In this document: piece by piece, positions 5,747 through 35,843 of the stretch
Layout of the letters: each line of letters begins with the position of its first letter
How positions within the stretch are numbered: the first letter of the stretch is position 1
The notes under the pieces: model-generated
Told to the model about the DNA's origin: nothing
Seen by the model: the letters and a program-made list of their open reading frames with translations, nothing else
Databases searched by the model: none
Source of the DNA: Acidobacteriota bacterium
GTDB lineage: Bacteria > Acidobacteriota > Terriglobia > Acidiferrales > UBA7541
Assembly: GCA_003223325.1 (NCBI GenBank)
Contig: QHYS01000118.1
Span: 23,643-63,297, forward strand
Direction of reading: 5' to 3'
DNA length: 39,655 nt
Made by a program: the position numbers and the translations under genes

Positions 5747-5834
5747 TAATAGCTAAAGTTTACGAGGAGACGGCACAGAGAAGACAGCGCTCCACTCATG
5801 GTTCCAGGCAATCGCATTACGAATGTCGGGCAGA

Positions 5835-5863: not shown

Positions 5864-5914
5864 GTAGCAGAGTCGGCCTGACTAAGGGTCGCCGTTACCT
5901 GACGTTTGATTTAT

Positions 5915-6853: not shown

Positions 6854-7738
6854 TCAGGGCTTTGCTGTTCCCACAGCAGCGTCCCTGATTTTATCGTTGA
6901 AGTGCTCCTCTTCGGAAGGGACGCAAAGCTCCTCAAAGATCGCCGCTTTCGCACGCACAAACGTAATTGTGTCGCCGACCCAAGGCGCCGTGTACGCCTT
7001 TGGATCAGTGATCGTCATGTCGAGTGTCAGCGTATCGGCATCAGGGTGGCGCCAGCGCTCGAGGAGGACCATCTGATCGCTATGAGGATTGCCGAAGTGA
7101 TCGAGCCAGGTGCGATCGTCGTAGCCGGTCGACGTTACAACGAAGGTGTCTGCGTCCCATTTTCCAATGGAGTATCCCATCCAGGCGGCATCTGGATCCT
7201 TCGGAAGTCCTCGGCCGTCGATCCAAATTTGGCGCCAGATATCGTGATACTGCATGTGTATCAGCACTCGGTCCGGGCCTTGAATTATCTCGAAGGGCCG
7301 TAGATTTGCCTCATATAGGTCGCGGGGATAGCCCATCGGGTCGCAGGTGGAAACTGCGTCATTCCCCAAGCCGGGTGCAACTGATCGGGGGCCATAGCTC
7401 GGCTTCGTCGCTTCAAACTTGGCCCTGCCCCATTCCGTGAGGGGAGGAGGATAAGTCTGGGACCTCATCTGGTCTGGAATACTCTTGTCTTTTATGTCTA
7501 GCCATTTGTCATTGAGGGCATGCCTTTCGAAATAACCAGCCTTGGTGGGCGACGACCAAACTCCGGACAGGTCATGTGCGTTATAAGGCTTGGGCTTTGA
7601 CAAGTCCTTCGACAACTCGTCCGGTTTCCAGGCCCCTGGCGCGTATCCCTTGGTGCCATAGGTCTGCGCGAACGTGACGGTCGAGATGGCGAGCACGGTC
7701 GCGAGGACGGCGAATAAGTCCATGAAGCGATTTCGCAT
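6854..7738 (-). CDS. Exported protein of unknown function, partner of a DUF6152 gene
   Basis: The protein has 294 residues when started at the ATG at 7738, which follows GGAGGGAG at good spacing and opens a signal peptide (MRNRFMDLFAVLATVLAIST, ending near TFAQ). The mature part is rich in Trp, Tyr, Asp and Pro, with segments DLSGVWSSPT, PPLTEWGRAKFEATKPSYG, STCDPMGYPRD, QGPDRVLIHMQYHDIWRQIW, IDGRGLPKDPDA, WMGYSIGKWDADTFVVTSTG and DDRTWLDHFGNPHSDQM. I have no named domain for it. In my memory, proteins of this style (lipocalin-like beta sheets with GVWxP and GxWxGDTLVVxTxG motifs) often sit beside DUF6152 genes in Acidobacteria and Proteobacteria. It lies 61 bp downstream of the DUF6152 gene on the same strand, so they are probably cotranscribed. 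Confidence 0.8.
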   Translation of the reverse strand: MRNRFMDLFAVLATVLAISTVTFAQTYGTKGYAPGAWKPDELSKDLSKPKPYNAHDLSGVWSSPTKAGYFERHALNDKWLDIKDKSIPDQMRSQTYPPPLTEWGRAKFEATKPSYGPRSVAPGLGNDAVSTCDPMGYPRDLYEANLRPFEIIQGPDRVLIHMQYHDIWRQIWIDGRGLPKDPDAAWMGYSIGKWDADTFVVTSTGYDDRTWLDHFGNPHSDQMVLLERWRHPDADTLTLDMTITDPKAYTAPWVGDTITFVRAKAAIFEELCVPSEEEHFNDKIRDAAVGTAKP

Positions 7739-7799
7739 TTTCCAACTCCCTCCTCTGATAGGCAGCCCGATTTGCTTGCGCTCGCCGGCCGCAGTCGGT

Positions 7800-8225
7800 T
7801 TACTGGCCAGGCTCGTCCGTGAGTTTGGCGCCGTTCCCCTTATGGCCTTTTTCCGGCAGAGTTCGCCCATCGGCGGTAGTGAACTCCTGAAGCTCGATGC
7901 GTGGTGCGCCCGACTTGGCCGGGTGCCCCGAAAGGGTGATCTTGTCGCCCGCCTTCAGGATATCTTTGCTCATGCCGGCCATGGAGAGTGCATGGGGATT
8001 CCCTAGCTCCGCGCCCCAATGTTCGACGCTACCTTTGTCATCCATGACGTCGAACAGGATGCCGCAATGGGGGTTGGCCCAAATCCATTCGGTTACAGTT
8101 CCCTTCAACGTAACTACCTTTTCTATGTCATAAGCCACGCCTGTTCCGTGGTGCGCGAAGAGCGGGACCCTTGCCAACAGAAGGCCGGCGATTAACGCCA
8201 AGCATATTAGGGGCTTAAGCTTCAT
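7800..8225 (-). CDS. DUF6152-family exported protein
   Basis: The protein has 141 residues from the ATG at 8225, which follows GGGAGGAATGG. The signal peptide is MKLKPLICLALIAGLLLAR up to about PLFA, and the mature protein starts HHGTGVAYD. The family pattern is clear: AHHG near the start, VVTLKGTVTEWIWANPH, a Trp-containing strand (VEHWGAELGNPHAL) and KAGDKITLSGHPAKSGAPRIEL. These are small beta-barrel (OB-like) periplasmic proteins of unknown function. The His pair just after the cleavage site could bind metal, but this is inference. It leads a likely two-gene unit with the unknown exported protein downstream. Confidence 0.82.
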   Translation of the reverse strand: MKLKPLICLALIAGLLLARVPLFAHHGTGVAYDIEKVVTLKGTVTEWIWANPHCGILFDVMDDKGSVEHWGAELGNPHALSMAGMSKDILKAGDKITLSGHPAKSGAPRIELQEFTTADGRTLPEKGHKGNGAKLTDEPGQ

Positions 8226-8383
8226 CCATTCCTCCCCACTGCATTCACTAGTATGCGCATTAATACTGGCTATTAGCACAGAATCACGGGCCGAGGCAAG
8301 GACATGACTGTCGGATAGGTCGATTCCTATGGCCTCTTACTACCTCCGCTTGTTAGATTCGTACCCGGCGACAACTGAGCCGC

Positions 8384-8797
8384 TCACACTCGCAGGATCA
8401 TAACTTCTGTGGACTTGATCAGCGCGGCAACCGTCTGACCCTTTTGCAGTCGCATCTCGCGGACGGCATCGGCGGTGATAATGGAAGTGATGTGCTGACC
8501 GCCGATGGAGAGCGTCACCTGAGCCATTAACCCCTGTGTCTTGATATCCGTGACGCGGCCGATGAGTTGATTTCTGCCACTGACCCTGCGGAAATTGTTG
8601 CGGCGCTGGCGGACATCGCCGGTTTCGCCTGCGCGATAAAGGAACCTATCGATCTGCTGTTCGGGAATGCGATGGTGGCCACCGGCGGTCTTGACGGTAC
8701 GAATCTTGCCCTTGTAAATCCACTGCTTGAGAGTGGGATAGCTAATGCCCAAAACCTGGGCAGCTTCGCGGGGCGAAAATAATTTTGCTGGTTGCAC
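8384..8797 (-). CDS. HTH-Mop protein: MerR-like DNA-binding domain plus molybdate-binding (TOBE/Mop) domain
   Basis: The protein has 137 residues and starts at a GTG at 8797, since no ATG precedes the DNA-binding motif. Residues 6-55 form an excisionase/MerR-type helix-turn-helix (FSPREAAQVLGISYPTLKQW, then GKIRTVKTAGGHHRIPEQQI). Residues 70-137 form a single Mop/TOBE domain with the classic SGRNQLIGRVTDI, TSIITADAVREM, GQTVAALIKSTEVMIL pattern that binds molybdate or tungstate oxyanions in oligomers. The architecture suggests a molybdate-responsive regulator that differs from E. coli ModE, which has a winged helix and two Mop domains. No molybdate transporter or molybdoenzyme gene is in the window, so its targets are elsewhere or unknown. 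Confidence 0.9.
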   Translation of the reverse strand: MQPAKLFSPREAAQVLGISYPTLKQWIYKGKIRTVKTAGGHHRIPEQQIDRFLYRAGETGDVRQRRNNFRRVSGRNQLIGRVTDIKTQGLMAQVTLSIGGQHITSIITADAVREMRLQKGQTVAALIKSTEVMILRV

Positions 8798-8903
8798 GGT
8801 TGTCGTCGTGGGGCGAAATCCTTAGACAGATCCCTTGCTCATCCAACTAGGGCCAAATCGCACGGATAATCATCCGCGTGGGATCATCACTCGCCCAGGT
8901 CCT

Positions 8904-10193
8904 TCAAGCCGATTGCAGAATTACGCTTTCCAGGACGGCTCGCAACTTATGGATGTCGGCCTCAACATGCAGCCTTTGCTGAGATAGTTCTCGCTCGCTG
9001 CGCCGCTTGATGCTGATCTCGGGATCCTTCAGCTGATGGCCCGTCAGGACGGCGACCACGTCCGCACCATCCTCGATTTTGCCCGAATGGACTAGCTTCT
9101 GGATGCCGGCGACCGACGCCGCGGATGCAGGCTCGCATCCAACACCGTCTCTAGCCAATACGGCCTTGGCCTCGAAAATCTGTTCGTCGGTAACAGACTC
9201 GCACAGGCCATCGGTTAAACGAAGGGCACGAAGAGCTTTTTTCCAGTTCACGGGATTTCCGATGCGAATGGCGGATGCCTCGGTACGCGGCTGGATAGGA
9301 ACGATCTCATCCGCGCCGGTGGCGATCATGGTGTAAAAGGGGCTCGCGCCTTCCGCTTGAACGACGACCAGGCGTGGCAGTTTGTCGATCAGTCCAAGTT
9401 GCCTGAGTTCCTGCAAGCCTTTTCCGACAGCGGAGACGTTTCCCAAATTTCCGCCGGGCAGAACCAGGTAATCCGGGACTCGCCAGTCCCGTTGTTCGAG
9501 GATTTCGAAGAAGATGGTCTTCTGGCCTTCGAGACGGAAGGGATTGAGGGAATTGACGAGGTAGAGACCGAGTTCGTCCGTAAGTTCGCGAAGCATCCGG
9601 AATGCTTGATCGAAGTTGTCGCCCATCTCGATGACCACGGCGCCAAATTCAAGGGATTGAGCCAGCTTGGCGGTGGAGATTTTTCCAAAGGGAACAAAGA
9701 CCACGGCTTTCATTCCGGCACGCGCAGCATAGGCCGCCATCGAAGCGGAGGTATTGCCAGTAGAGGCGCATGCGGTCACGCGGCTGCTGAGAATAGAAGC
9801 CTGAGTGATGCAGGCGGTCATGCCCAAATCTTTGAATGAACCCGTCGGATTACTGCCCTGATGCTTGATGGCAAGATGAACGCCGCCCGCCCACTCCCCG
9901 GTGCGGTTCACTTCGATGAGCGGGGTGCGACCCTCGGATAGACTGACCACTTTGGTCCCCTCGGGGACAAATGGCAAAAGCTCGCGGAAACGCCATACGC
10001 CGCTTTGGTCGATGATCGTGCTGCTTGTTTTGCGCTGCTGCCACAAGGCACGCAAGGAAGCGGCGTCGATCCCCTGGAAATCGTATTGGACATCGAGCAA
10101 GCCGCTGCATTCGGCGCATTGATGCTCTTTGGCATCGAGCGGATAGCGCTGCTGGCAGCTTTGCTCAATGCATCTCAGAAAGGCTGAGGTCAT
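8904..10193 (-). CDS. thrC: Threonine synthase
   Basis: The protein has 429 residues from the ATG at 10193; an earlier in-frame start would add a non-conserved basic extension. It is a PLP enzyme converting O-phospho-L-homoserine to L-threonine. The N-terminus has a zinc-ribbon-like set of cysteines (C8, C13, C26, C29), as in the bacterial/plant-like type, followed by VSLSEGRTPLIEV. The PLP lysine is K121 in GSNPTGSFKDLGMT. ACASTGNTSASMAAYAARAG binds the phosphate side, and LPGGNLGNVSAVGKGL is the glycine loop. The last 40 or so residues (ISIKRRSERELSQQRLHVEA onward) form a charged helical tail that is not part of the core fold. It stands alone with 244 bp to the divergent SseB-like gene. Confidence 0.95.
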   Translation of the reverse strand: MTSAFLRCIEQSCQQRYPLDAKEHQCAECSGLLDVQYDFQGIDAASLRALWQQRKTSSTIIDQSGVWRFRELLPFVPEGTKVVSLSEGRTPLIEVNRTGEWAGGVHLAIKHQGSNPTGSFKDLGMTACITQASILSSRVTACASTGNTSASMAAYAARAGMKAVVFVPFGKISTAKLAQSLEFGAVVIEMGDNFDQAFRMLRELTDELGLYLVNSLNPFRLEGQKTIFFEILEQRDWRVPDYLVLPGGNLGNVSAVGKGLQELRQLGLIDKLPRLVVVQAEGASPFYTMIATGADEIVPIQPRTEASAIRIGNPVNWKKALRALRLTDGLCESVTDEQIFEAKAVLARDGVGCEPASAASVAGIQKLVHSGKIEDGADVVAVLTGHQLKDPEISIKRRSERELSQQRLHVEADIHKLRAVLESVILQSA

Positions 10194-11376: not shown

Positions 11377-12224
11377 CAGATCACAGGCGGCTGGGCGCCG
11401 ACGTAACAGCCGAGGATGCGCACTTCCCTGGTGCGCCGGCGCAATTCCTCGAGCGCGACCTGCGTTCCCGACGCCTGGGGCGGGGCCATCAGGTCGAGAT
11501 AAAAACAGTATTCGAACGGATGGCCGACGATCGGACGGCTTTCGATTTTCACCAAATTAATCTTTTCTCGTGCCATAGGTTCCAGGGCCTGATGCAAGGC
11601 GCCGGGCCGGTGCAGCAAGAAAACAACCAAAGAAATCTTGTCGGCTCCTGCGGGCATTCCGGGTTCAGAGGAGAGAAGCACAAAGCGAGTGTAGTTCTGC
11701 TGATGGTCTTCCAGATGAGATTGCAGGATGCAGCCGCCATAAATTTCCGCGGCGCGGCTGCTGGCGATGGCCGCGCGCTGGAAATCCCCTGCGCGGACCA
11801 CTTCGCGAACGCTCCCGCCGGTGTCTTCGGCGGCTACACGCGTGATCTGGGAATGCGCTTCAAAAAAGCGCGTGCAGTGTGCCAGCGCCACCGGGTGCGA
11901 TTGCACGAACCGCACCTGCTCGATGGTTGCGCCGGGTGGGCCGATCAAGTTGTGCGAAATGGGAAGAATGACTTCCGCGATGATGCTGAGCTTGCTTTCG
12001 AGGAGCAAGTCGTAACAGCGATAGACGGAGCCGGCTAGGCTGTTCTCGACGGGCGCCAGAATGAGGTCAGCGGCGCCGTCGGCGATCGCGGCAAACATGA
12101 CTTCGAATGTGGAGCGCGGAACGGTCTCGATTTGGCCGCCCAGGAGTTTGACGGCGGCCTCTTCGCTGAAAGCGCCTGGCTCGCCTTGGAAGGCGACGCG
12201 GAGTTTTTCTTGGTGTCGGGTCAA
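11373..12224 (-). CDS. pheA: Prephenate dehydratase (monofunctional, with ACT domain)
   Basis: The protein has 283 residues. It turns prephenate into phenylpyruvate in phenylalanine synthesis. The catalytic region starts LRVAFQGEPGAFSEEAA, continues with DLILAPVENSLAGSVYRCYD, EVILPISHNLIG and VQSHPVALAHC, and ends at the active-site Thr in NYTRFVLL. A C-terminal ACT domain follows (LVVFLLHRPGALHQAL, INLVKIESRPIVGHPFEYCF), which gives Phe feedback control in the family through ESRP. The start is a TTG at 12224, whose TTGA overlaps the stop of the upstream methyltransferase-like gene by 4 nt, implying translational coupling. A later ATG would remove the conserved N-terminus. Confidence 0.94.
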   Translation of the reverse strand: MTRHQEKLRVAFQGEPGAFSEEAAVKLLGGQIETVPRSTFEVMFAAIADGAADLILAPVENSLAGSVYRCYDLLLESKLSIIAEVILPISHNLIGPPGATIEQVRFVQSHPVALAHCTRFFEAHSQITRVAAEDTGGSVREVVRAGDFQRAAIASSRAAEIYGGCILQSHLEDHQQNYTRFVLLSSEPGMPAGADKISLVVFLLHRPGALHQALEPMAREKINLVKIESRPIVGHPFEYCFYLDLMAPPQASGTQVALEELRRRTREVRILGCYVGAQPPVIC

Positions 12225-12859
12225 GGGCGATGCTCTCGGGGCGAGGAAGAGTGCCTCATGCGCGATGGCAGCCGAAACGGCAGGAGCGCAGGAACACGCT
12301 CAGCGTAAGCGGCGTAGGCCGAGCCCAGGCGGGTGTGCAGTTCGCGTTCTTCGGCGCGAATCATGAGAAGAACTAAAACGAGCCAGACCATACTCGGCGC
12401 CCAGAGCGTCGTTCCGATAATCGGTCCTCCGACAATTAGCCAAGCTCCGAACACGCCCGACATCATACCGAGATAGCGAGGATGGCGCACGTGCGCGTAG
12501 AGTCCGCGAGCGATCAATTCGCGGCTGTCGGCCAGTTCGGAGTGCCCTACGATTCGGCGTCCGCCGAGCACGGCTTCGGAAGTGGCGAAGGTAAAAACAT
12601 CGAAGGCGATCAGGGCCATTCCCACAGGAGCCAGCCAGGACATGCGATGGGGGCGGAAAAGTTCCTGGCGAAAGCGATAAAGAAGGCCATCGACGATTCC
12701 CCAAGCTGCGAGCACCACCACAGGAAAGGCTGCCCGGATGTGTCTGCGCCAGAACGAAACCCAGCCGTGTAGCGTAAGCCAGTAGATGGGAACGGGCATT
12801 TCGAAGGCCAGCACGGCTATGGCCATGAAGCGGACGGCTTTCTCGAAGAAACTGGTCAT
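12221..12859 (-). CDS. Isoprenylcysteine carboxyl methyltransferase-like membrane protein
   Basis: The protein has 212 residues from the ATG at 12859 (MTSFFEKAVRFMA); the upstream extension to 13006 runs into the divergent cupin gene and is unlikely. It is strongly hydrophobic with about five membrane segments. The C-terminal half has the ICMT/PEMT signature: RGLYAHVRHPRYLGMMSGVF, then IRAEERELHTRLGSAYAAYA and ERVPALLPF. In the family the RHPxYxG and EExxL segments bind S-adenosylmethionine, so a membrane-bound methyl transfer is expected; the acceptor is unknown, since bacteria lack prenylated Cys substrates of the eukaryotic kind. It overlaps pheA by 4 nt and is divergent from the cupin gene over an 84-bp gap. 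Confidence 0.85.
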   Translation of the reverse strand: MTSFFEKAVRFMAIAVLAFEMPVPIYWLTLHGWVSFWRRHIRAAFPVVVLAAWGIVDGLLYRFRQELFRPHRMSWLAPVGMALIAFDVFTFATSEAVLGGRRIVGHSELADSRELIARGLYAHVRHPRYLGMMSGVFGAWLIVGGPIIGTTLWAPSMVWLVLVLLMIRAEERELHTRLGSAYAAYAERVPALLPFRLPSRMRHSSSPREHRP

Positions 12860-12943
12860 CGACAACAAGCGGGCATTGACGGCGGTTGCTCTTTCGCGCG
12901 ACGATGCGGAGATTATCACAGTACCGGCAGCGAGGAGGCAAAG

Positions 12944-13300
12944 ATGGAAAAGACCTCGTGGGAAACGCTTGAAGGCGAGCAGCTCAATAAGCTGGTATCG
13001 CGTCAAATGTTGAACGGCGATAACGCAACCATCGCGCGGCTAGTCATGACGCGTGGTGCGGTGGTGCCGCGGCACTGGCACGCGAGCGAGCAATTCTCGC
13101 TGATTCTGTCGGGAGCGCTGAAATTCGTGTTTGATGACCGCGAAGTGGTCGTTCACGGCGGCGAGGTCCTTTATATTGCGCCGAATGTTCCGCATTCGGC
13201 GGTAGCGCTCGAAGATACGGTTGATATTGATTTCTTCGCACCGCGACGGGAGGACTGGATTCGCAAAGAAGACGCCTACTTGCGCGAACAGCGCGTCTGA
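12944..13300 (+). CDS. Small single-domain cupin protein
   Basis: The protein has 118 residues and is one cupin barrel. Motif 1 is GAVVPRHWHASEQFSLILSG, with the metal-ligand candidates H63, H65 (HWH), E69, and motif 2 is HGGEVLYIAPNVPHSAVA, with the fourth ligand His in PNVPH. A metal-bound sensor or small-molecule binding or enzymatic role is possible; the substrate cannot be told. The ribosome site AGGAGG at 12932 is well placed. The gene ends 28 bp before the aminopeptidase start on the same strand, so the two are likely cotranscribed, and it is divergent from the methyltransferase-like gene. Confidence 0.88.
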   Translation: MEKTSWETLEGEQLNKLVSRQMLNGDNATIARLVMTRGAVVPRHWHASEQFSLILSGALKFVFDDREVVVHGGEVLYIAPNVPHSAVALEDTVDIDFFAPRREDWIRKEDAYLREQRV

Positions 13301-13328
13301 ACGAGCGGAGCCCATTCAGGAGAGTGGG

Positions 13329-15980
13329 ATGGCTGAAGAAACTAACGATCGATCGTTTGTGAATCGGTGGACGAAGGGATGCGGACGTATTGCCCTTATT
13401 TCATTTTTCCTACTCGCGCTGGGAGCGGGGGTTGCGCCGCGGGCTCGCGCCGATGAGCCCTTTGCCCGCAGCCGCGACTACGACTTGCAGAACGCGCGAA
13501 TCGAATTGCGGTTTGACTTGGATCAGAGGCAGGTGATCGGCCAAGTCACGCACACGCTCACGACGCTGAAGAATGGCTTGCGCGAGTTGGATTTCGATTC
13601 CGTCGGTTTGACGATTCTGAGCGCCAGCCTCGACGGAAAGGAAGCGCACTTTTCGACCGACGAGGCTAAACTGCACGTGGCCCTCGGCCGCGACAGCAAA
13701 GCCGGCGAAAAGCACGAGGTGGCCATTCGTTACCAGGGCAGTCCGAAGAAGGGCCTCTATTTCATCCTGCCGAACAATAGTTCCTCGGCACAACCCAAGG
13801 AAATTTGGACGCAGGGGGAGGCCGAAGAGACCCGCTATTACGTTCCCATCTACGACTATCCGAACGACCGCACGACGACAGAAATGATTGTCACCGTTCC
13901 GCGCGACTGGGTGACCGTGTCGAACGGCAGGCTTGAGAACGTTGTGAATGCCGGGCCGGGCATGAAGACGTGGACGTGGCGGCAATCACAGCCGATCTCC
14001 ACGTATCTGATTTCTCTGGTGGCGGGCGAATTCGACGAGAGCAAGAAAACCTGGCGCCATCTTCCCGTGGACTATCGTGTGCCACGGGGAGAAGCGGATC
14101 GCATCGAGTCTACGTTTGCGCGCACGCCCGAGATGCTCAGCTTTTTTTCTGAGCGATTGGGCGTGCCTTATCCGTGGGACAAGTATGACCAGACAGCCGT
14201 GGATCAGTTCACCCTGGGCGGAATGGAGAACGCTAGCGCAACGACCCTCACGGCGCGCAGCCTGCTGCACCCGGCGCTCGCGCGCGAGAGCCTGGAAGGC
14301 GCAGATGGTTTGATTTCGCACGAAATGAGCCATCAGTGGTTCGGCGATCTGGTGACCTGCAAGGATTGGGGCGACTTATGGCTCAACGAGGGATTCGCGA
14401 CGTTTATGGCCACCCTTTGGGAGGAACATCAGTACGGCGCCGACAATGCTGCGTACGCGCGCTGGCGCGCGCAAGCGGCGTGGTTGCGGCAGCGGCGCTT
14501 GTTCCAGGTTCCCATAGTGACGCACGATTTTCGCGACTCGCTTCAGTACGCGGGAAATATCTACGGCAAGGCAGGCCTGGTGCTGCAGATGCTCCGGGAA
14601 CAACTCGGTGACGATGTCTTCTTTCATGCGCTGCAACATTATTTGGAGGTGAATCGGCTAGAAAACGTGGTCACCTCAGACCTGATCAAAGCGATAGAGG
14701 AATCGACGCACGTCGATGTGGATCGCTTCTTTGACGAGTGGATTTACGGCGGCGGCGCGCCGCGTTTTGCCGTGAGCACGACCTACGACGCGGGCGCCAG
14801 GGAAGTTCGCCTGCAGGTACAGCAAACGCAGGACGTCCGCGGCCACGTGGGACTTTTTGAGATGCCAGTTGAGGTCGCCGTCACAACGTACGCAGGCACC
14901 AAGGGCTTTCCCATTACAGTAACGAAAGCGGACGAAACGTTTTCGTTTCCCGCGGATTCAGAGCCGCTGCTGGTCTTATTTGATAAGGGCGACAAGATTC
15001 TGAAGTCCGTCGAATTTCGTAAATCGGCAGAGCAGTGGATCTACCAACTGCTGCACGCGGAGGACGTTCCCGACCGCGCCGACGCAGCGCAGGCGCTGGG
15101 CGATATGAAAGGAAACGACGGGGCGATCGCCGCCCTCGGCGGAGCAGTGGCGCACGACCATTTTTGGGGCCTGCGGGTGCAGGCACTCACCGCGCTAGGT
15201 AAGATTGGCGGAGCGCAGGCGGAAAATGCCGTTCTTCCTGGGCTCGAAGATGCTGACCCGTGGGTGCGGGAAGTGGCCGTAGAGCAACTCGGCAAATTTT
15301 CTGATGATCCAGCGCTCGCTACGAGGCTGGCGGGAATTGCCGGCAAAGACAGCGCTTATCGCGTGCGTGCCGCGGCTCTGCTGGCCCTAGGGCAACGCAA
15401 GGCGGACATCGCCATGGCCACGCTCGAGAACGCGGCGAAGACCGATTCTCCGGACGACGTGATCCGCCGCGCGGCGCTGCGCGCCATGGGTGTACTCGGT
15501 AACGACCAGGCCGCGCCACGGCTGCTGGAGTGGCTGGATCCGGGGAAAGCGATGCGACTGAGAACCGCGGCGATCGACAGCCTGGGAAAAATCGCGAAGA
15601 AGGATGAATCGGTCGAATCGCGCCTGATCGCCCTACTGAACGATCCTGATTTCGACATTCGGCTGGCGGCGGTCTACGCATTGGGCGAACGCGGTGATCC
15701 AGCGGCGATCGAGCCTCTCGAGAATTTGCGAAAGAGCGGAGATATACCCTCGGGCGGCGGCCCCGTAATCGAACGACAGATTGCGCGAATCAAAAATCCT
15801 CGTGCAGAAGAAGACGCAGCATCTACCGCAGCCAGCGCACCGAACCAGGGCCAGGCTCCGGGGAACGAGCGGGCCGAGCAGCAGATCGTCGAGCGCCTGG
15901 ACAAGATCGAGCAGAATCTAGCCGAAATGAACGAGAGGCTGAAGAAAATCGAGCAGCAACCGAGCAGGGTGATGCCGTAA
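13329..15980 (+). CDS. Exported M1-family zinc aminopeptidase with C-terminal HEAT repeats and coiled coil
   Basis: The protein has 883 residues from the ATG at 13329, which follows CAGGAGAG. A signal peptide (RIALISFFLLALGAGVAP, cleaved near RARADEP) shows export. The M1 region includes the substrate-binding GGMENAS near residue 297 and the zinc site H331-E332-xx-H335 with E354 (HEMSHQWFGD, LWLNEGFATF). The next helical domain ends around residue 560. After this, about 260 residues form HEAT/PBS-lyase-like repeats (RADAAQALGDMKGNDGAIAA, VRREVA-type units such as DPWVREVAVEQLGKF, and FDIRLAAVYALGERGDPAAI). The last 50 residues are an Ala/Gln linker and a coiled coil (IVERLDKIEQNLAEMNERLK). 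The repeats probably bind a partner or anchor the enzyme. Confidence 0.93.
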   Translation: MAEETNDRSFVNRWTKGCGRIALISFFLLALGAGVAPRARADEPFARSRDYDLQNARIELRFDLDQRQVIGQVTHTLTTLKNGLRELDFDSVGLTILSASLDGKEAHFSTDEAKLHVALGRDSKAGEKHEVAIRYQGSPKKGLYFILPNNSSSAQPKEIWTQGEAEETRYYVPIYDYPNDRTTTEMIVTVPRDWVTVSNGRLENVVNAGPGMKTWTWRQSQPISTYLISLVAGEFDESKKTWRHLPVDYRVPRGEADRIESTFARTPEMLSFFSERLGVPYPWDKYDQTAVDQFTLGGMENASATTLTARSLLHPALARESLEGADGLISHEMSHQWFGDLVTCKDWGDLWLNEGFATFMATLWEEHQYGADNAAYARWRAQAAWLRQRRLFQVPIVTHDFRDSLQYAGNIYGKAGLVLQMLREQLGDDVFFHALQHYLEVNRLENVVTSDLIKAIEESTHVDVDRFFDEWIYGGGAPRFAVSTTYDAGAREVRLQVQQTQDVRGHVGLFEMPVEVAVTTYAGTKGFPITVTKADETFSFPADSEPLLVLFDKGDKILKSVEFRKSAEQWIYQLLHAEDVPDRADAAQALGDMKGNDGAIAALGGAVAHDHFWGLRVQALTALGKIGGAQAENAVLPGLEDADPWVREVAVEQLGKFSDDPALATRLAGIAGKDSAYRVRAAALLALGQRKADIAMATLENAAKTDSPDDVIRRAALRAMGVLGNDQAAPRLLEWLDPGKAMRLRTAAIDSLGKIAKKDESVESRLIALLNDPDFDIRLAAVYALGERGDPAAIEPLENLRKSGDIPSGGGPVIERQIARIKNPRAEEDAASTAASAPNQGQAPGNERAEQQIVERLDKIEQNLAEMNERLKKIEQQPSRVMP

Positions 15981-27364: not shown

Positions 27365-28570
27365 TCAAAGTGACGCGAAGGCAAGCAGCACAATTTCGGG
27401 GCTTGTTCCCACACGTAGGGGAGGGCCCCACGTCCCGGCTCCCCAGTTAGTAAAGACGAGGAGCCGGCCGAAGCGATGGAGGCCATGTACATAGGGACCA
27501 TAAATGCGAGACGTGATCCAGGACGCCGGCGGGAATTGCCCGCCATGAGTATGGCCGCAAAGCTGAAGCGAAATTCCCGCTTCCTCGGCGATGGTCAGCC
27601 GATGGGGCGCGTGCGCTAGCAGGACGCTCGGCCGCTCGCGCGTAATGGATGCGTTTTGCAGGATGGCGCGAAAATGCGCGGGATCGATGAATTCGCGGTA
27701 GTGTACTCCAATGATCTGTAGCCCCTCGAGCTCAATTCTTTCATTATTCAAGACGCGGACCCCGGCTCGCGAAACGGCTTCTAGATATTTGGCGCGGTCG
27801 GCGAATTCCTCGTGATTGCCGGTCACGAAAAATGCGCCGAGCGGCGCAGAGAGCGCCGACCAAGGTTCCGCCAAGGCGCCCACATTGGCCCTTGTGCCGT
27901 CATACATATCGCCGGCGATGAAGACAACGTCCGGGCCCAGCTGGTTAAGTCTGGCGATGACTCGCTGCATGAAGCCGACGTTGCGGACGTGCCCCAAATG
28001 CATATCGCTTACCAGTGCGGCGACACGTCCGCGCCAACGGTCCGGCAAATTCTGTAGTCTTATGGTGATTCGAGTTACGCGAACGCGCGCGGCATTGACC
28101 ACGCCGTAAAAGCCGACAAGAAGTGCGGCCCCAAACAATCGATTGGCGATCTGATTTGGCGCTATGTGCAGACCCATCAGCCGCACCAAGCCCAGAATAA
28201 TCCAACAGGAGGCAGCCGCGAATAGACAGAAGCACATGAGCCCAACCCAAACCGCAGAGATCACGTAGAAGCCCCGCACCAGCCAGTTGAAATACCACCA
28301 CGCCAGTAACGAGGCAGCGACAAAGCCCACCGCGGCAACGGGAAATACGATTCGCAGAGTGACGTGTGTCGTGGGATCAAGCGATGGATGAAAGGCGATC
28401 CAGGTCTCGTATAGAAACCAGTGCGCAAGAAGCAAGATTGATTGAACGACGATGACGAGTCTGCGGAATCGTCTCAGCCGCACCCGGCTGAATTCTTCAG
28501 AAGTTGGTTTTTCGGCCACAGGCCGAGGGAGCGAAGCCTCTGACTCGAGAGAAGGGTGCGCATTGCTCAT
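27365..28570 (-). CDS. Membrane-anchored metallophosphoesterase (YkuE/calcineurin-like)
   Basis: The protein has 401 residues. The N-terminal 170 residues contain four membrane segments (LVIVVQSILLLAHWFLY, IVFPVAAVGFVAASLLAWWY, FYVISAVWVGLMCFCLFAAA, LFGAALLVGFYGVVNAA). The catalytic domain follows with all five calcineurin-type metal motifs in order: ALVSDMHLGH, VVFIAGDMYDG, VTGNHEEF, LLAHAPH, and CGHTHGGQ. This is the arrangement of YkuE/YpbG-type phosphoesterases, acting at the membrane on an unknown phosphoester, perhaps a lipid or cell-wall intermediate. The gene is divergent from the DUF5519 gene over a 35-bp gap. The start ATG at 28570 is followed by a proline- and glutamate-rich cytoplasmic leader of about 35 residues. 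Confidence 0.92.
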   Translation of the reverse strand: MSNAHPSLESEASLPRPVAEKPTSEEFSRVRLRRFRRLVIVVQSILLLAHWFLYETWIAFHPSLDPTTHVTLRIVFPVAAVGFVAASLLAWWYFNWLVRGFYVISAVWVGLMCFCLFAAASCWIILGLVRLMGLHIAPNQIANRLFGAALLVGFYGVVNAARVRVTRITIRLQNLPDRWRGRVAALVSDMHLGHVRNVGFMQRVIARLNQLGPDVVFIAGDMYDGTRANVGALAEPWSALSAPLGAFFVTGNHEEFADRAKYLEAVSRAGVRVLNNERIELEGLQIIGVHYREFIDPAHFRAILQNASITRERPSVLLAHAPHRLTIAEEAGISLQLCGHTHGGQFPPASWITSRIYGPYVHGLHRFGRLLVFTNWGAGTWGPPLRVGTSPEIVLLAFASL

Positions 28571-28605
28571 AAAGAGCTAGAATAAACGCATAGGAGCATA
28601 AAGCA

Positions 28606-28947
28606 ATGGCAGTCGCAGGCGCGCGGCAGCGGATCGTTGCCGCGGTACATGGGTGGAAGAAGGTCGAGATTCTGCCCCACCGCTACGGCGGACTGGAGTT
28701 TCGGCTAGGCAAACGTGAATTGGGGCACGTCCACGACGACGCCCTTGTGGACATTCCCTTCCCGAAGGCGGTACGCAATGAAATCGTCGCCGCCGGGGAG
28801 GCCGAACCGCATCACATCTTACCGAATTCGGGTTGGGTGAGCGTATTCTTGCGGGCGAATGCGGACGTGGAGAGGGCGATTGAGCTGCTGGAACGTTCCT
28901 TCCAGTTGGCCATGGCACACAGGCAGGGAGCGAAAACCCGAGAATAA
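28606..28947 (+). CDS. DUF5519 (luciferase-domain-like) small protein
   Basis: The protein has 113 residues. The central segment is typical of the DUF5519 family: VEILPHRYGGLEFRLGKREL, GHVHDDALVDIPFPKAVRNE, AEPHHILPNSGWVSVFLRAN, and DVERAIELLERSFQLA. The His residues in GHVHDD and PHHILP are conserved in such proteins and may bind a ligand, but no reaction is known. The name luciferase-like in databases is historical and does not imply light production here. AGGAG lies 9 bp before the ATG at 28606. The gene shares a 35-bp divergent gap with the phosphoesterase gene, so the promoters overlap. Confidence 0.78.
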   Translation: MAVAGARQRIVAAVHGWKKVEILPHRYGGLEFRLGKRELGHVHDDALVDIPFPKAVRNEIVAAGEAEPHHILPNSGWVSVFLRANADVERAIELLERSFQLAMAHRQGAKTRE

Positions 28948-28985
28948 TCAGCCGTGCTTGCAAGCGGTGCGGGCAACTGACTTTG

Positions 28986-30656
28986 TTACTGCGGCTTTTT
29001 CTTTCTGCCTAGCAGGCCTGTGAGCTTATCGACGGCCTGCTGCAGGTCTTTACTATTCGACGGAATGGCGGTGTTGCCGTTTTTCACGCCATTGGCGAGA
29101 CCGCCGACGATTCCACTCACGTCAGGGATAATTTGGGGATTCGAGGTCGTGCCCTGAACCTTAAAAGGTATGCCTCCACTTTCCGCGGCGTTGGCCAGGC
29201 TGGCATGGCCAGACGAACTGCTCTGGCGACCGAGATGCGCAATCATCTTGAAATCCAGTTTATGGTCGGCGGATATGGTGCCGTTGCCTGTCATCGATCC
29301 GAGTGACGGCACAACCACGTTGAGATTGTCGCTGCGGATGCCTTCGGGCGCGACACGGAAATCAGAATTGAGCATTTGAATCTCGGTGTCCCCCACGTTT
29401 TTCATGCCGCTAAAAGCGGAGAGCGAGGCCATCCTCGAGCCTAGGTCAAAGCCGGTCAACCTTGCATTCGAGAGGCTGACGGGGCCGGTGATCACCAGCT
29501 TATCCACAGGACCGTTGATGGCCAAGTTCGCATTTAGAGCACCCTGTTTCAGTGATGCTCCGGAAGGAAGGGTTACGCCCAGCGCAGGCAATACCGACTC
29601 CAAATCGGAAGCGGGCATGTTCTGACCGGTCAGCTTCATTTGCACCGATGCGACGGCACCGGAGTTGTTGAAGTTGCCCGTGAGATCGGCAGAAGCTTTT
29701 CCGATGTGCACGTCGCCGCGCCGCAACTGACCGGTCTGTGGCTTCAACTCATAGGCGGCTTGATAATCGACGTCCACGGGCTGAGTGGCAGGAGAGCCCC
29801 CGGGAACAAGCTGCAGGTGGGTGGCCGTGATTTTGCCGTTAGAGGTCGCGGTGCGCCCATTCGAATTCAAAGTGCCGCTGAAGTCCATTATGCCGGCCAT
29901 TCCGGCGGAAGGATCAATGAACCCGGTTGACTTCAGATCCAAATTCTTGATTTCGACCCTCGCCCTCAAGGGAGTAGCCGCGCTGTCCTGCGAGTTCAAC
30001 GGTCCTGCCTCGCCTGTAAGTTTGACAGTGCCGTTGCCGGGAGTTCTAGCGGTCAACTCGAATGGGAACTGCGTCGTATAAGAGAGATCCGAGGATTTGA
30101 TATTGACTTGATCGTATGTGTGCGGAAGGCCGCTTGCGCCTGTTCTGCCGACGACCACGGTCCCGTTTTTCAAGGTGAAACTGCGGACAGAGAGGTCCGG
30201 GCTGGAGCCGCTGCTAGAGGTGTTGGCCGAGCTTGCCGCCCTGGCGTTTTTGGTTTGGGTTTGGTTTGCTCCCAGGGTGGACAAGTTCCACCTCCCAGCT
30301 GGGGAGCGAAGCAGCGTGACCCTAGGTTGATCTATGGTCAAACCAGTGACGTGGATGGCGCGTGAGAAGATCAGAGGAGCCAATTCCAGGTTTACGTTTA
30401 GGGATTTGGCTTTCAGAAAGGGGCCGGTATTGAAGGACGGATCGTCGGAGATGGCGATATTTTCCACGGTCACTCCGCCCGAGAGGATTGACAGTCGAAT
30501 ATCTCCAATGTCAACTCTGCGATTCAAAGCAGTGTTCAGCGACGATTCGATTTCCGGACGGAACCGATTGGCGTCGATTACAAAGGGTAGGAGAACAACA
30601 ACGATCAGCAGAACTACGACGATGCCTCCGACGATATAGATTATCTTACGTGCCAT
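28986..30656 (-). CDS. AsmA-family protein
   Basis: The protein has 556 residues. One membrane anchor at the start (IIYIVGGIVVVLLIVVVLLP) is followed by FVIDANRFRPEIESSLNTAL and NRRVDIGDIRLSILSGGVTV, the classic AsmA N-terminus. Then comes a long beta-rich body with repeating strands (for example VDKLVITGPVSLSNARLTGF and SDLESVLPALGVTLPSGAS) and AsmA C-terminal-like segments. AsmA-like proteins sit in the inner membrane facing the periplasm and are thought to help move phospholipids to the outer membrane. There is a low-complexity Ser/Asn stretch near residue 145 (AASSANTSSSGSSPD). The gene runs convergently to the DUF5519 gene with a 38-bp gap. Confidence 0.88.
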   Translation of the reverse strand: MARKIIYIVGGIVVVLLIVVVLLPFVIDANRFRPEIESSLNTALNRRVDIGDIRLSILSGGVTVENIAISDDPSFNTGPFLKAKSLNVNLELAPLIFSRAIHVTGLTIDQPRVTLLRSPAGRWNLSTLGANQTQTKNARAASSANTSSSGSSPDLSVRSFTLKNGTVVVGRTGASGLPHTYDQVNIKSSDLSYTTQFPFELTARTPGNGTVKLTGEAGPLNSQDSAATPLRARVEIKNLDLKSTGFIDPSAGMAGIMDFSGTLNSNGRTATSNGKITATHLQLVPGGSPATQPVDVDYQAAYELKPQTGQLRRGDVHIGKASADLTGNFNNSGAVASVQMKLTGQNMPASDLESVLPALGVTLPSGASLKQGALNANLAINGPVDKLVITGPVSLSNARLTGFDLGSRMASLSAFSGMKNVGDTEIQMLNSDFRVAPEGIRSDNLNVVVPSLGSMTGNGTISADHKLDFKMIAHLGRQSSSSGHASLANAAESGGIPFKVQGTTSNPQIIPDVSGIVGGLANGVKNGNTAIPSNSKDLQQAVDKLTGLLGRKKKPQ

Positions 30657-30826: not shown

Positions 30827-31501
30827 ATGCACCGACTAAGACTCTCGCGGTGGATTTGTGCTTTCTCGCTCGTTGCTTTGTACGGGTGCAGTTCGTCGCA
30901 GTCAAGGAACAATACGGGCACTGCCGTAAATAGTGCCAGCCCCGTCGCCGAACAAGCCCCTGCGCCAAAGGAGCAGGCGCCCCCCGTCGTCGTCCCAGCG
31001 GGAACAACCCTTAGCGTCACCGTAGACCAGTCTGTCAGTTCAAAGAATAGCGAGCCGGAGCAACGTGTGGTCGCTTCTCTGGCCGAGCCCATCATTATAG
31101 ATGGCCGCGGCGTGCTTCGGCGGGGAGCCAAAATTACTGGTAAGGTGACCAGCGCGAAATCGGCGGGCAGATTCAAGGGCAGCGCCGAACTGGGCATTAC
31201 GCTGACGTCCATCAACGTGGAAGGCCAGAATTATACAATTCACACCAGCACGTTCAGTGAAACGAGTAAAGGCCGCGGAAAGAGGACAGCCGAGGGTGCG
31301 GGCATCGGCGCTGGAGCCGGGGCGCTTATTGGCGTGCTCGCCGGCGGCGGGAAAGGAGCTGCCATCGGCGCGGGTGCCGGAGGCGGTGCAGGACTCGCAG
31401 GAACAGCCCTGACGGGCAAGCGAGATATCACGATTGCGGCAGAGACGAGACTCGATTTCAAGTTAACGAAGGCTCTCGAGATTCAGCAAAGGCAACAGTG
31501 A
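30827..31501 (+). CDS. Lipoprotein with glycine-zipper segment
   Basis: The protein has 224 residues. A lipoprotein signal ends in the lipobox LYGC with the lipidated Cys at residue 21, followed by SSSQ. A Pro/Ala-rich linker leads to a small beta domain (VVVPAGTTLSVTVDQSVSSK, IIIDGRGVLRRGAKITGKVT, LTSINVEGQNYTIHTSTF). Residues about 160-195 form a glycine zipper (GAGIGAGAGALIGVLAGGGK, GAAIGAGAGGGAG), a hydrophobic Gly-rich helix often found in outer-membrane lipoproteins. The end (ITIAAETRLDFKLTKALEI) is another beta part. The ribosome site GGAGGT at 30812-30817 is well placed for the ATG at 30827. No Asp follows the lipid Cys, which favours outer-membrane sorting. The exact function is unknown. 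Confidence 0.88.
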   Translation: MHRLRLSRWICAFSLVALYGCSSSQSRNNTGTAVNSASPVAEQAPAPKEQAPPVVVPAGTTLSVTVDQSVSSKNSEPEQRVVASLAEPIIIDGRGVLRRGAKITGKVTSAKSAGRFKGSAELGITLTSINVEGQNYTIHTSTFSETSKGRGKRTAEGAGIGAGAGALIGVLAGGGKGAAIGAGAGGGAGLAGTALTGKRDITIAAETRLDFKLTKALEIQQRQQ

Positions 31502-31562: not shown

Positions 31563-32660
31563 CTAGCGCGCCAATGCCGTATCGGCCGGGGTATCAGGTG
31601 TGAAACCGGTGGGCCGCGGTCGATATCCATTTCTGGTTCGAATGCGGAACGGCTTCAACTTCTCGCCGATCAGCTTCACCGTGATTGTGCGCCAGCCGCG
31701 ATTGGGATTAGGCTGCGGGTAATAGCTCAAGGCATAAAGGTGTGATAGATCATCGCGGACGGACGCGAAAGCCTGCTGCTGTTCTTTCCAGTTCTTCGCA
31801 AAGTAGGCTTGACCACCGGTGCTCGCGCTCATACGCTCGAATACAGCAGTGCTCATAGGGTCCTGTTTCGCTTCTCGAGTGCTGATCATATAGATGGGAA
31901 TACCTTCCGACTGCGCCAGCTCGCCTACCCCTTCGGGCGGGACCATACTGGCATTGTCCGGCCCATTGGAAAAGACGACGATCACTTTGCGGCCTGTATT
32001 CTTACCTGCATCTCTGAGAACGAGCAACAGAGCGTTATAGAGGGCGGCATCGGCGCCCGCGACGGTCGAACGTACGCCGCGCAGGACCTGCGAGCGATCC
32101 GAGGTGAGCAAAGCATCTCGCGCAACATCCCGGCTGTAGGAATAGAAGGCAATTTTCGCGGTATTATCGAGAGAGCGAACGAAATCAGAAATGGCATCCT
32201 GCGCGAAGACAAAGCCTCGATACATATAATTGCTCGTGTCAAAAAGGATAAAGACATTAGCGCCTGCAGAGCTGAACTGGGGCGATCCGGAGCCTGTCCT
32301 GGAATCGCCGACGCTGGATGCGGAGGGATTGCTGGCCGGCTGCATAGGGTTGAGCAGCATAATCGGGTCCTGGTTTCCTTCTTCAAAAGTGGCCATTTTC
32401 TGCGGAATAGTGTCCTCGATAATCTCGAAGTCGGAGGGACGCAGGCCCGTCACATAGTTTCCTTTTCGATCGATGACCGCGACGTTCAACTGCACCATAT
32501 CAACGTTCACGCGGAAGACCGTGCCATTATCGACATCGGAGACCGAGGCGCTCTCGGGAGCCGGGGGAGGCGGGGCGCTTTGCTGGCCGTGAACTGTGGA
32601 GTTGAGACCCACAAACAGAAGTAGGGCAACGCACGCTGCTAGCTGATGTCCTCTCATCAT
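31563..32660 (-). CDS. Secreted VWA-domain protein, Acidobacteria VWFA-related type, degenerate MIDAS
   Basis: The protein has 365 residues from the ATG at 32660 (an ATGATG start after GGAGGG; the second ATG has the better spacing). The signal peptide runs to about HGQQ. A Pro/Ala linker precedes VDMVQLNVAVIDRKGNYVTG, then LRPSDFEIIEDTIPQKMATF, the family opening. The metal site reads FDTSNYMYRG (D141, S143, Y145), so the third ligand position, usually Ser, is Tyr and metal binding is doubtful. The rest of the A domain (YSRDVARDALLTSDRSQVLR, KVIVVFSNGPDNASMVP) is intact. The C-terminal beta part has LSHLYALSYYPQPNPNRGWR. It lies 63 bp downstream of the 1,039-residue orphan, in the same direction. 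Compare the intact-site relative at 433-1458. Confidence 0.88.
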   Translation of the reverse strand: MMRGHQLAACVALLLFVGLNSTVHGQQSAPPPPAPESASVSDVDNGTVFRVNVDMVQLNVAVIDRKGNYVTGLRPSDFEIIEDTIPQKMATFEEGNQDPIMLLNPMQPASNPSASSVGDSRTGSGSPQFSSAGANVFILFDTSNYMYRGFVFAQDAISDFVRSLDNTAKIAFYSYSRDVARDALLTSDRSQVLRGVRSTVAGADAALYNALLLVLRDAGKNTGRKVIVVFSNGPDNASMVPPEGVGELAQSEGIPIYMISTREAKQDPMSTAVFERMSASTGGQAYFAKNWKEQQQAFASVRDDLSHLYALSYYPQPNPNRGWRTITVKLIGEKLKPFRIRTRNGYRPRPTGFTPDTPADTALAR

Positions 32661-32723
32661 CCCTCCGAGGCGCCTGGGGCTGGCCGGGCGATCTTGATTG
32701 ATATGGCTTAACAACTTCGAATA

Positions 32724-35700
32724 TTAAAAACTAGAAGCGATCGCACTCTTCGGCAGCGGAGCGACCTTTCCTTGCCGGAATTCTTCTCCCGTCTGCCGCA
32801 TAGCGCGGAGCACAGCCGGCCAATCCTCAAAGTGTGTTGCAAAGATTTTCTCGATCATTCGATGCGTCAACTCAGGAACCAAGCGATTTAGCATTACGGG
32901 CGAATAGCCCAATTCGTCTGCCAGGCGCGCCCAGTACAAATTATTGGACTCCCAGGACTCCGCCATCAGCCGGCTGGAGTAGCCCATAATGGCGGGAAAC
33001 GGCTTCACGTTGAGCAATTCGCGGGCGTAGGTCTGCGCCAGGGCCGGATGGGGCACACCAAAGTCTTGAGAAAGTCGCTCCCAACTGACTTCGTCGGGAT
33101 AGCGGCTAACCAGAGATTCCAATTCCCTGCCAGAGGCGCGCCAGTCACTGTTCCCAGCGGGGAAGCGCCTTCGAAACTCCGCCGTAAGGTAAAAAGTCTC
33201 CGCAGGCGTCACCTCGGCGAGTATCTGCTGAACAGCACCGCTACTGAGGTCGTTTGCGATCTGCTCCTGTTTCTGGGGAAGAATCCGATCAGAAAGAATT
33301 TCCACGACCCCCCGGCGCAAGTCTGCATTCTCTGCTGCGGCGGAAAGCAACTCTTCGCCGGTGCGCTGGTAAAGAGTGACGGCGTGTAACTCAACAGGAG
33401 TCACTCGCCACCAGCGTGGAAGGACGGCGCTGGTGAGCAGGCTCGGGACGAGATCTTCCCATACGAGGGCCTGCACGTTTTCAGGAACGATGAAATCCTG
33501 CTCCGTCTGGGCAAGCACGTAAGGCAGATCGGCCAGCGATCCAACTAAATGAGCTCCGCCGCCGGCCGCCCAGCCGCGGCCGAACAAGAGCGGGGTATGC
33601 CACGCCTGGTCGCCGGAGACGACGGTCAGCCCGGCGAAATCATGATAGCGCACGAAGAGCGGATTATTGTGAAGCATTTGAGCGCCGGGCGGCTCGTAGT
33701 AAGCATAATTTAAACCTACCAAAGTGTCCCTCAAAAATGGAGCGAGCTGGCCGCGGGCGTCGGCAGCTTCCTGTGGGGACCGCGGAGACTGGACGATTTG
33801 AACCAAGGTTCTGCCGATCTTCAACTCAGTCTGGCGATTATCGTAAAGACCACCTGCCCAAGCTGTCCTTTCGCGACTGGTGAACATCGGCCGCGGCATC
33901 TCGAATTCTCGAAGCTCGTTGGCAAGGGGCACCAAAGCCTCCGCGGTTGTCTTTCCTTCCGACAACCGCTTCAAGCCGTTCGCCAGCGAGAAAAGCGTGT
34001 CTAGCGAAGCAAGGCGCTGCGACTCCATGACCGCACGCATGCGGTTAGCGAGCAACTGACGTACTTGCCTGCCATCAGCGCTCGATTGCTCGGGTCCCGC
34101 AAGCAGGCTGATCAGCTCATTTTCCGAGGGGTTCGTCGCGCCGCTCGCATCGTGAATGATTTCCGCCAACGAGGTGCGACCCGCATCAAAAATTTGCGTA
34201 GGGTTAGACGCGTGAGAAAAAGGATTCAGCAATCGTTGCCAGGAGTCGTTCAGAGTTGTACTGGGAATTTGGCCTTGCCGTGCAAGGATTTCCCAAAGGC
34301 CGATGTTTGCTTGCAGGATGCCGATGGCATTGCCTCGCACCGTGCGGTCGGGAATACGATCGAGGGCCTCGCCAACCGCTAGGAAGCGCGTGATGGACTG
34401 ATCGTCGAGATCGCGGAATTCGGAAAAAATCAGATATTGATCATCGAATTTCGCGAATTTATCCGCCAGCAACCGCACCGTTTGCGGGCTGAGACGTTTA
34501 TTGCGAGGCCGCACCCGGTCAATTTCCGAAAGCGTGAGGAATATTTGTAAGGGTCCGTTGTTGAGCGATCGGGAGAGCCCAAACATGCCCTCAACGAGCT
34601 GCTCGGAATTGTTCCAGCTTCCAGCCTTATGGGCCCACTCCGAGGCGACTTTAGAAGTGGGCTGATGGCGGACGATCTCCTTCCAAATCTGAGGGTTACC
34701 TGGTACTAGCGGTTCGTCGTTGGAGTCGAACTGGAGGCGCGTGACTAGGAGCAAAAGTCCGGGATTCGGACGGAATATAAGGAACCTGGCGGGTCCGGGA
34801 TGGGCGTCGTTTCCGCGAAGAGCCTGATAGAAGCGCGGCAGCCTGCGGGCATCGGTGAAATAAGCGAGCTGACTTTGTTTCAACCGAGAGAGCGCAGCGA
34901 AATAGGCGGCCAGCCAGCCTTCATCTCGAGACCACAACTTGGTCAAGAACTCCTCGGGTGAGTCTGGGCTCGCGCCGACCAATTGCTTCCAAGCGGGTTC
35001 CGCAGCGGCTCCGCCCGGAACGAGAAGGCGACCGGAGCGAATGGAGAGTTCCGCACCATAGAAATCGAGCAGGGCAGAAAAAGGCGCAAGCTTGGGCAGT
35101 CCTGGCGCTCGCCGCAGAAAGCCGCGGGTTTCACTATCCATGCGGGCCAACGCCCAATAGAGGCGGGCCCGGAGGGGGTCCTCCAGAAGCCCCGCGACGA
35201 AATCGCCGTCGCTATTCTCGCCACCCTTCCCACTCAGTTTCCAATCTTCGGCTCTGAAGATCATGGGTACCAGCGAAGAAGGAAACGGGTAAACGAACCG
35301 TTTGCCCTCGCGCACCGCCTGCTCAAGCTCCGCTATCGGGAAGCCGGAGTCATTGGCGATAAACGCGCGCTCAGGCTCGGAGGCTTCGAGTTCGGTATCG
35401 GGCCCACAGCCCTCTTTCAGACGGTAGCCGATAATCATGAGTAGCGGGGCTGCTTCCTGGCAGTTTGCAACGTGTAAGCTTTCCGCAGACCCCGCGAGCG
35501 ACTGCAACTCTTTAGCTTGTTGTAAGTATCTCTTTAACAACACCAAAAACTCGGTGGGTTTCGGATCTTTATCAGGCGAACCTCGATAACCGTCGATTAC
35601 GACGTTGCGGGCCAGCAAGGGCAATACCTCGTCGGGTGCAACTTGCTGGCTTATTGCCGCCATGCGCAGAAAAGGCCGAAGCGGTCCGGGAATCGTTACC

Positions 35701-35843
35701 TGTGTCTGTTCGTCTTTGGCTCGCGCCGGTGGGGTTGTTCCCTTTGCCTGGGGGTTATCAGCGGCGATCAGCGTATCGGTGCTAAAGCATAGGCATACAC
35801 GTAAGCAATTAGTACTCGCCGACGGGCACGAAGATCCAAGCAT
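32724..35843 (-). CDS. Very large protein of unknown function (1,039 residues), upstream partner of the VWA gene
   Basis: I cannot assign a domain. The N-terminus (MLGSSCPSASTNCLRVCLCF) is a poor signal peptide, yet the segment from ADNPQAKG onward looks like a mature secreted protein, so the true start or signal may be lost or misread. The body is mainly helical with repeated hydrophobic positions and few charges grouped. Segments include VTIPGPLRPFLRMAAISQQV, VLPLLARNVVIDGYRG, GEELLSAAAENADLRRGVVE, and at the end RMIEKIFATHFEDWPAVLR. No catalytic motif, membrane segment or repeat family stands out. In memory, proteins with the IPGPLRPFLRMA start are limited to Acidobacteria. Its end is 63 bp before the VWA protein start on the same strand, so they are likely one transcript, and a role outside the cytoplasm is inferred from that. 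Confidence 0.75.
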   Translation of the reverse strand: MLGSSCPSASTNCLRVCLCFSTDTLIAADNPQAKGTTPPARAKDEQTQVTIPGPLRPFLRMAAISQQVAPDEVLPLLARNVVIDGYRGSPDKDPKPTEFLVLLKRYLQQAKELQSLAGSAESLHVANCQEAAPLLMIIGYRLKEGCGPDTELEASEPERAFIANDSGFPIAELEQAVREGKRFVYPFPSSLVPMIFRAEDWKLSGKGGENSDGDFVAGLLEDPLRARLYWALARMDSETRGFLRRAPGLPKLAPFSALLDFYGAELSIRSGRLLVPGGAAAEPAWKQLVGASPDSPEEFLTKLWSRDEGWLAAYFAALSRLKQSQLAYFTDARRLPRFYQALRGNDAHPGPARFLIFRPNPGLLLLVTRLQFDSNDEPLVPGNPQIWKEIVRHQPTSKVASEWAHKAGSWNNSEQLVEGMFGLSRSLNNGPLQIFLTLSEIDRVRPRNKRLSPQTVRLLADKFAKFDDQYLIFSEFRDLDDQSITRFLAVGEALDRIPDRTVRGNAIGILQANIGLWEILARQGQIPSTTLNDSWQRLLNPFSHASNPTQIFDAGRTSLAEIIHDASGATNPSENELISLLAGPEQSSADGRQVRQLLANRMRAVMESQRLASLDTLFSLANGLKRLSEGKTTAEALVPLANELREFEMPRPMFTSRERTAWAGGLYDNRQTELKIGRTLVQIVQSPRSPQEAADARGQLAPFLRDTLVGLNYAYYEPPGAQMLHNNPLFVRYHDFAGLTVVSGDQAWHTPLLFGRGWAAGGGAHLVGSLADLPYVLAQTEQDFIVPENVQALVWEDLVPSLLTSAVLPRWWRVTPVELHAVTLYQRTGEELLSAAAENADLRRGVVEILSDRILPQKQEQIANDLSSGAVQQILAEVTPAETFYLTAEFRRRFPAGNSDWRASGRELESLVSRYPDEVSWERLSQDFGVPHPALAQTYARELLNVKPFPAIMGYSSRLMAESWESNNLYWARLADELGYSPVMLNRLVPELTHRMIEKIFATHFEDWPAVLRAMRQTGEEFRQGKVAPLPKSAIASSF

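Follow-up and report, generated by a model that had tools for sequence, protein, structure and literature searches.

A large helical protein of soil acidobacteria is kept beside a VWA protein with an altered metal site and probably forms an envelope complex with it

Why does a gene for a von Willebrand factor A (VWA) protein directly follow the gene of a 1,039-aa protein from an unnamed family in this acidobacterial DNA, and do the two products work together? Few bacterial groups are as common in soil as the Acidobacteriota. VWA proteins of the NCBIfam subfamily domain TIGR03436 (acidobact_VWFA) form a large paralogous family in them, with 20 genes over the cut-off in the genome studied here. 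The window, by which we mean the whole stretch of 39,655 nt analysed, carries both genes on the minus strand. The large, largely alpha-helical protein (BIG) is encoded at 32724..35843 by a listed open reading frame (ORF) with its ATG at 35843. The VWA partner gene occupies 31563..32714 when read from a TTG (383 aa), and its likely start is the in-frame ATG at 32660 (365 aa). The spacing between BIG and the VWA gene is 9 bp measured from the TTG and 63 bp from the ATG; the same-strand gap of 63 bp given in the earlier note is therefore correct when the VWA gene starts at 32660. The product read from this ATG opens like a signal peptide according to a signal-peptide heuristic. Comparison with two close relatives gave a dN/dS of approximately 0.10–0.11 for BIG and 0.05–0.06 for the VWA partner. 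Purifying selection on both indicates that both are real genes.

A gene convergent to the VWA gene (30827-31501) encodes a protein with a glycine-zipper stretch, and its match to PF13441 is below the cut-off. An AsmA/DUF748-type protein (28986-30656; PF05359, E 1.8e-23) and a metallophosphatase (27365-28570; PF00149, LpxG-like below the cut-off) are encoded on the same strand as each other. These two genes at 27365-30656 are possibly lipid or envelope genes.

Library searches placed BIG in no known family. The best Pfam E-value of the window protein was 0.72, below the cut-off; no NCBIfam model matched over its curated cut-off, and no match was found among PDB sequences. A profile built from a 24-row BIG alignment (A3) also retrieved nothing relevant from the PDB sequences (best E 0.22). 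When 24 divergent BIG members were scanned for Pfam and NCBIfam families, one matched, and only to TPR-type models. An anti-phage defence module was considered and rejected, as PADLOC matched 0 of the 24 members. The statement that BIG belongs to no known family therefore stands for Pfam, NCBIfam, PDB sequences and PADLOC. The description of BIG as an orphan was wrong, since the same genome encodes a 24%-identical paralogue and homologues occur across the phylum. The paralogue (L139, G000:C177) is a 1,660-aa frame in which TPR precedes the BIG part; a VWA gene of its own comes next and overlaps it by 4 bases. A VWA-like region at its N-terminus was seen by eye and was undetected by Pfam and NCBIfam, so it is not claimed. 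Judging from its sequence, L081 likewise has TPR fused ahead of BIG.

BIG was present in 23 of the 89 genomes of the window's family. A contig scan with window-type BIG patterns yielded 377 relatives, of which 80 loci, all with acidobacterial titles, were kept. The linkage was near-obligate: 78 of these named loci had a same-strand VWA gene directly downstream of BIG, and in the other two (L079 and L131) the contig ended 2 and 42 bases past BIG. The pair is thus conserved and adjacent in other Acidobacteriota, and the refuting case named in the earlier note, unlinked genes in relatives, was not observed. Clustering of all ORFs in the 80 loci revealed no other conserved gene within 8 kb. Apart from shadow ORFs of the pair itself, one dispersed family recurred, in 16/80 loci and on either strand. 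The neighbourhood has otherwise been scrambled while the pair stayed joined. Among 30 listed pairs with a separate downstream VWA gene, 11 have a candidate VWA start that overlaps the stop of BIG by 4 bases, as does L139/L002. Chance adjacency is not credible: the 6.1-Mb genome has 20 TIGR03436 genes, so that, assuming about one gene per kb, a given neighbour would be a TIGR03436 gene in well under 1% of cases. These relatives are not independent of one another, so independent evidence comes from reversed gene order, one-chain forms and joint loss.

Such evidence was found among distant homologues. The single BIG protein as query matched 46 of 396 genomes of the phylum, and the 24-row profile matched at least 56 of 396, many in families other than the window's; the second count is a lower bound because scoring was limited to the two best candidates of each genome. 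Two rows were set aside: G157, whose match in the profile search spans 149 positions next to a contig edge, and G118, which was found with the single protein (E 1.7e-4) and was absent from the profile matches. In a first set of 20 distant loci, BIG was linked to a VWA gene in 19, with 18 separate VWA neighbours and one fusion (L144) that holds TPR, BIG and VWA in one chain; the remaining locus (L140) is cut by a contig end. A second set comprised 20 loci with sequences outside the A3 profile. The VWA gene was adjacent on the same strand in 16 of these, three loci (L214, L215 and L222) were cut by contig ends, and L219 held a 174-aa BIG remnant without an adjacent VWA gene. L214 and L223 were judged by reading to be the same gene on different contigs. 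In 4 of the 16 linked loci (L206, L207, L210 and L211) the order was reversed, with the VWA gene upstream of BIG, and in two of them, L206 and L210, the C-terminus of BIG has a weak VWA-like stretch. The linkage therefore holds in distant relatives and is older than the window's clade. The term lineage-specific, used in the earlier note, is better replaced by a description of the pair as scattered across the phylum.

One joint loss was observed. The flanks of the remnant in L219 (G301) align to L216, positions 4170-5965 to 10-1843 and positions 6601-9155 to 11418-14001. Between these flanks, L216 carries a third gene, the VWA gene and BIG. The corresponding segment of L219 (5965-6601) has a single match to L216, a 49-base piece at the BIG start. 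At this locus, one lineage has thus lost all three genes except for the BIG remnant.

The third gene encodes a protein of approximately 1,000 aa. It accompanied the BIG-VWA pair at 14 of the 40 distant loci and was on the opposite strand in L152. Loci of this kind include L147, L153, L154, L209, L216 and L221, which belong to other acidobacterial classes. Four examples were scanned: in L147, L153 and L154 the protein has a TIGR03436 stretch and C-terminal TPR, and in L151 the TIGR03436 stretch and TPR are fused to the partner VWA. These acidobacterial TIGR03436 + TPR proteins are absent beside the window BIG, where no third gene is adjacent, and none recurred in the 80 loci with window-type BIG. 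No homologue of the third subunit was found near the VWA genes examined in the window's own genome. Two candidates from this genome were dismissed: a 971-aa frame (C146), the only long one, below the TIGR03436 cut-off, which by sequence sits in a MoxR-Bat-like region, and L159, whose weak match of 24% covers the VWA part only.

The VWA partner is specific to BIG. It scored 144 bits against TIGR03436 (E 7.1e-42, residues 65-365; curated cut-off 81.25) and matched PF13519 (E 1.7e-8). Among the 20 TIGR03436 genes of its genome, only the partners of the two BIG genes adjoin BIG. The stretches surrounding 17 others were examined and gave no BIG match, and the twentieth is the window's own gene at 433-1458. 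Three TIGR03436 genes lie close together elsewhere in this genome (L162, G000:C150:50999-54039), with no BIG match nearby. In a VWA tree of 52 rows, for which 12 of the 80 named partners were chosen and the VWA stretches of the third gene were omitted, 15 window-type partners formed one group (support 100/100) and five C177-type partners another (100/98). The two types were joined at 94/86, and the non-partners of the same genome split off at 93/90; this tree has several long branches, and its non-partner VWA proteins come from one genome only. In this grouping, VWA types follow BIG types rather than genomes: the two genes are inherited together.

The two genes also co-occur. The DNA pattern of the altered loop 1 described below was detected in 22 of the 89 family genomes, and each of these 22 also has BIG; in the one BIG genome of the 23 without the pattern (G008) the VWA frame is cut short in its locus. 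A second match in G018 lies at a contig edge. In the phylum, the pattern was found in 18 of 396 genomes, all with window-type BIG, and the two window-type BIG genomes that it missed (G329 and G369) read FDSSNY.

Linkage alone cannot show contact, and the two genes could merely be co-regulated while their products do not interact. We consider this improbable: BIG and VWA occur in one chain in L144, a weak VWA-like stretch ends BIG in L206 and L210, the order is reversed in one family, the pair was lost jointly, and VWA types track BIG types and not genomes.

The metal site separates the partner from ordinary VWA proteins. The MIDAS motif is defined as DxSxS–T–D (PMC9976466). The VWA partner of BIG lacks this metal-binding set: compared with the canonical relative at 433-1458, it reads DTSNY, A and N at the three MIDAS loops. 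In loop 1 (32223..32243, minus strand; converted from G000:C95:55865-55885), F-D-T-S-N-Y-M replaces DxSxS. The degenerate MIDAS reported in the earlier note, DTSNY against DNSGS at 433-1458, was correctly read; the change is not confined to the first loop, and all three are altered. The loss of ligands is invariant among orthologues. Loop 1 reads DTSNY, DTSDY or DSSNY in 75/75, with S replaced by Y in all; the loop-2 Thr is lost in 75/75 (Ala in 69, Ser in 3, Glu in 3); and the loop-3 Asp has become Asn in 74/75, with one gap. The partner is thus a TIGR03436 protein by score, and it differs from this family in that MIDAS ligands are lost in three loops and the loss is fixed, and in being tied to BIG, unlike the 17 other members examined in its own genome. 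In the distant loci, 17 of 19 partners keep the loop-3 Asp according to a regular expression, which the other two did not match. T-to-V and D-to-N substitutions in the NorD MIDAS resulted in an inactivated NorD target (PMC9976466). The window clade thus naturally carries changes of the kind that abolish MIDAS function elsewhere, yet holds these changes under strong constraint.

The arrangement recalls the MoxR AAA+/VWA systems (NorQ-NorD, RavA-ViaA and Bat), in which a VWA protein and a dedicated large partner are encoded side by side. The BIG-VWA pair differs from them in three respects: no AAA+ gene is conserved within 8 kb in the 80 loci, the products carry signal peptides, and the MIDAS is lost. 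Elsewhere in the same genome (L173), what we take from the look of the sequences to be a MoxR-like gene is followed by a DUF58/BatA-like ORF. Like NorD, which acts on a target protein (PMC9976466), the VWA protein might serve BIG as its own periplasmic chaperone or adaptor, helping it to mature or be delivered, and stay outside the final complex. The gene order, with BIG first and VWA second in most loci and overlapping starts in many, is in keeping with such a role. Against it, NorD partners with an AAA+ ATPase, of which none is conserved near this pair, and the two proteins carry signal peptides; the MIDAS that NorD needs for activity (PMC9976466) is lost in the VWA partner; and the single chain of L144 suits a stable complex better. 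A chaperone or adaptor is therefore unlikely, although it deserves more weight than mere co-regulation.

Export was assessed with a simple signal-peptide heuristic on N-termini, with internal Met positions as controls. The heuristic was positive for 54 of 80 BIG and 59 of 72 VWA N-termini, compared with 4/1296 and 7/314 of the respective controls. The rule undercounts, because several of the listed failures resemble signal peptides that merely lack a Met in frame. The window BIG itself fails because its native start is missing. Comparison with the close relatives L059 and L117 showed that 74 nt, which include the native ATG and the n-region of the signal peptide, are absent at 35800..35813 (minus strand), and the window ORF opens at a different ATG from theirs. 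The gap may reflect either a difference between strains or an error in the assembly, and BIG may be unexported in this genome. The exported type suggested for BIG thus applies to most relatives, whereas the window copy has lost its native start together with the N-terminal portion of its signal peptide. The signal peptides point to the envelope as the probable location of the pair.

The predicted structure of BIG is largely alpha-helical, as the earlier note had expected. The AF2 model of the whole protein reached pLDDT 83 and pTM 0.84, and the N-terminal part (residues 41-430; 34554..35723, minus strand) was confidently predicted on its own (pLDDT 90.7, pTM 0.88). Foldseek against the PDB returned no match at E ≤ 0.001 for the whole model or for residues 41-430 (best E 0.84 for the latter). 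The best VIA-align 2 Z-scores were 4.2 and 3.7, respectively, and no significant match to viral structures was found for the whole model. By these models, BIG appears to have no known fold among solved structures, a result that does not make its fold new. An ACE-like fold, seen in VIA-align 2 rows with Z of 2.1–3.1, was dismissed as common helical arrangements, and no HExxH was seen in BIG.

Conserved residues mark a phylum-wide family. In an alignment of 28 divergent members, the PGG hallmark (residues 276-278; 35010..35018, minus strand) and a nearby Trp stood out, with P276, G277 and W285 identical in 28/28 and G278 in 86%; the P, G and W are also invariant in A3. F299, G309, Y713, H734 and G768 are each conserved at 96%. 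His734 (33642..33644, minus strand), in an R-x-H-x-F hallmark, is invariant in the 24 rows of A3. BIG could be an enzyme whose class has yet to be recognised and whose substrate the VWA protein recruits, since His734, Tyr713, Gln609 and Trp201 are kept at 89–96% in the 28 members, more than a pure scaffold needs. The near-invariant positions are mostly Gly, Pro, Trp and Leu, and no known catalytic set is visible among the conserved positions of the 28 members. There is also no significant fold match to an enzyme, and the ACE-like rows with Z ≤ 3.1 lack support. We regard an enzyme as improbable.

We favour the reading, at a probability of roughly 60%, that BIG and VWA together make up a single dedicated envelope complex, exported by Sec, in which the VWA protein is metal-independent. 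BIG would be its large helical scaffold. The VWA protein would bind BIG through the face that holds the metal in ordinary VWA domains, and in the window's clade this metal site would have given way to a fixed contact surface without metal. The role of the complex in the envelope would be structural or adhesive rather than enzymatic. In other classes, the complex would be exported as three proteins, including the third gene product. Besides co-regulation without contact, other points weigh against a complex: the window BIG fails the signal-peptide heuristic, BIG is patchy (23/89 family genomes and at least 56/396 phylum genomes), TIGR03436 genes are abundant in these genomes, and the VWA tree took its non-partners from one genome. 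A bolder reading would be a phylum-wide envelope machine built on a giant BIG of new fold, in which the VWA metal switch became a permanent metal-free lock in Terriglobia and other classes keep the switch and add a third VWA-TPR subunit. We offer it tentatively, as the less probable proposal.

A literature search on TIGR03436, VWFA-related, and von Willebrand factor and tetratricopeptide proteins of Acidobacteria found no paper on the BIG-VWA family. PMC3174227 lists 'von Willebrand factor, type A' as a paralogue group. The pair gives one member of TIGR03436 a specific, testable partner that has neither a family name nor a fold match. Its loci offer a naturally graded set of VWA proteins, from those that bind metal to those that do not, with two-gene forms, three-gene forms and fusions as a guide for experiments. 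Overall, the adjacency of BIG and VWA has been kept across soil acidobacteria, and the two proteins probably form a two-part complex of the cell envelope.
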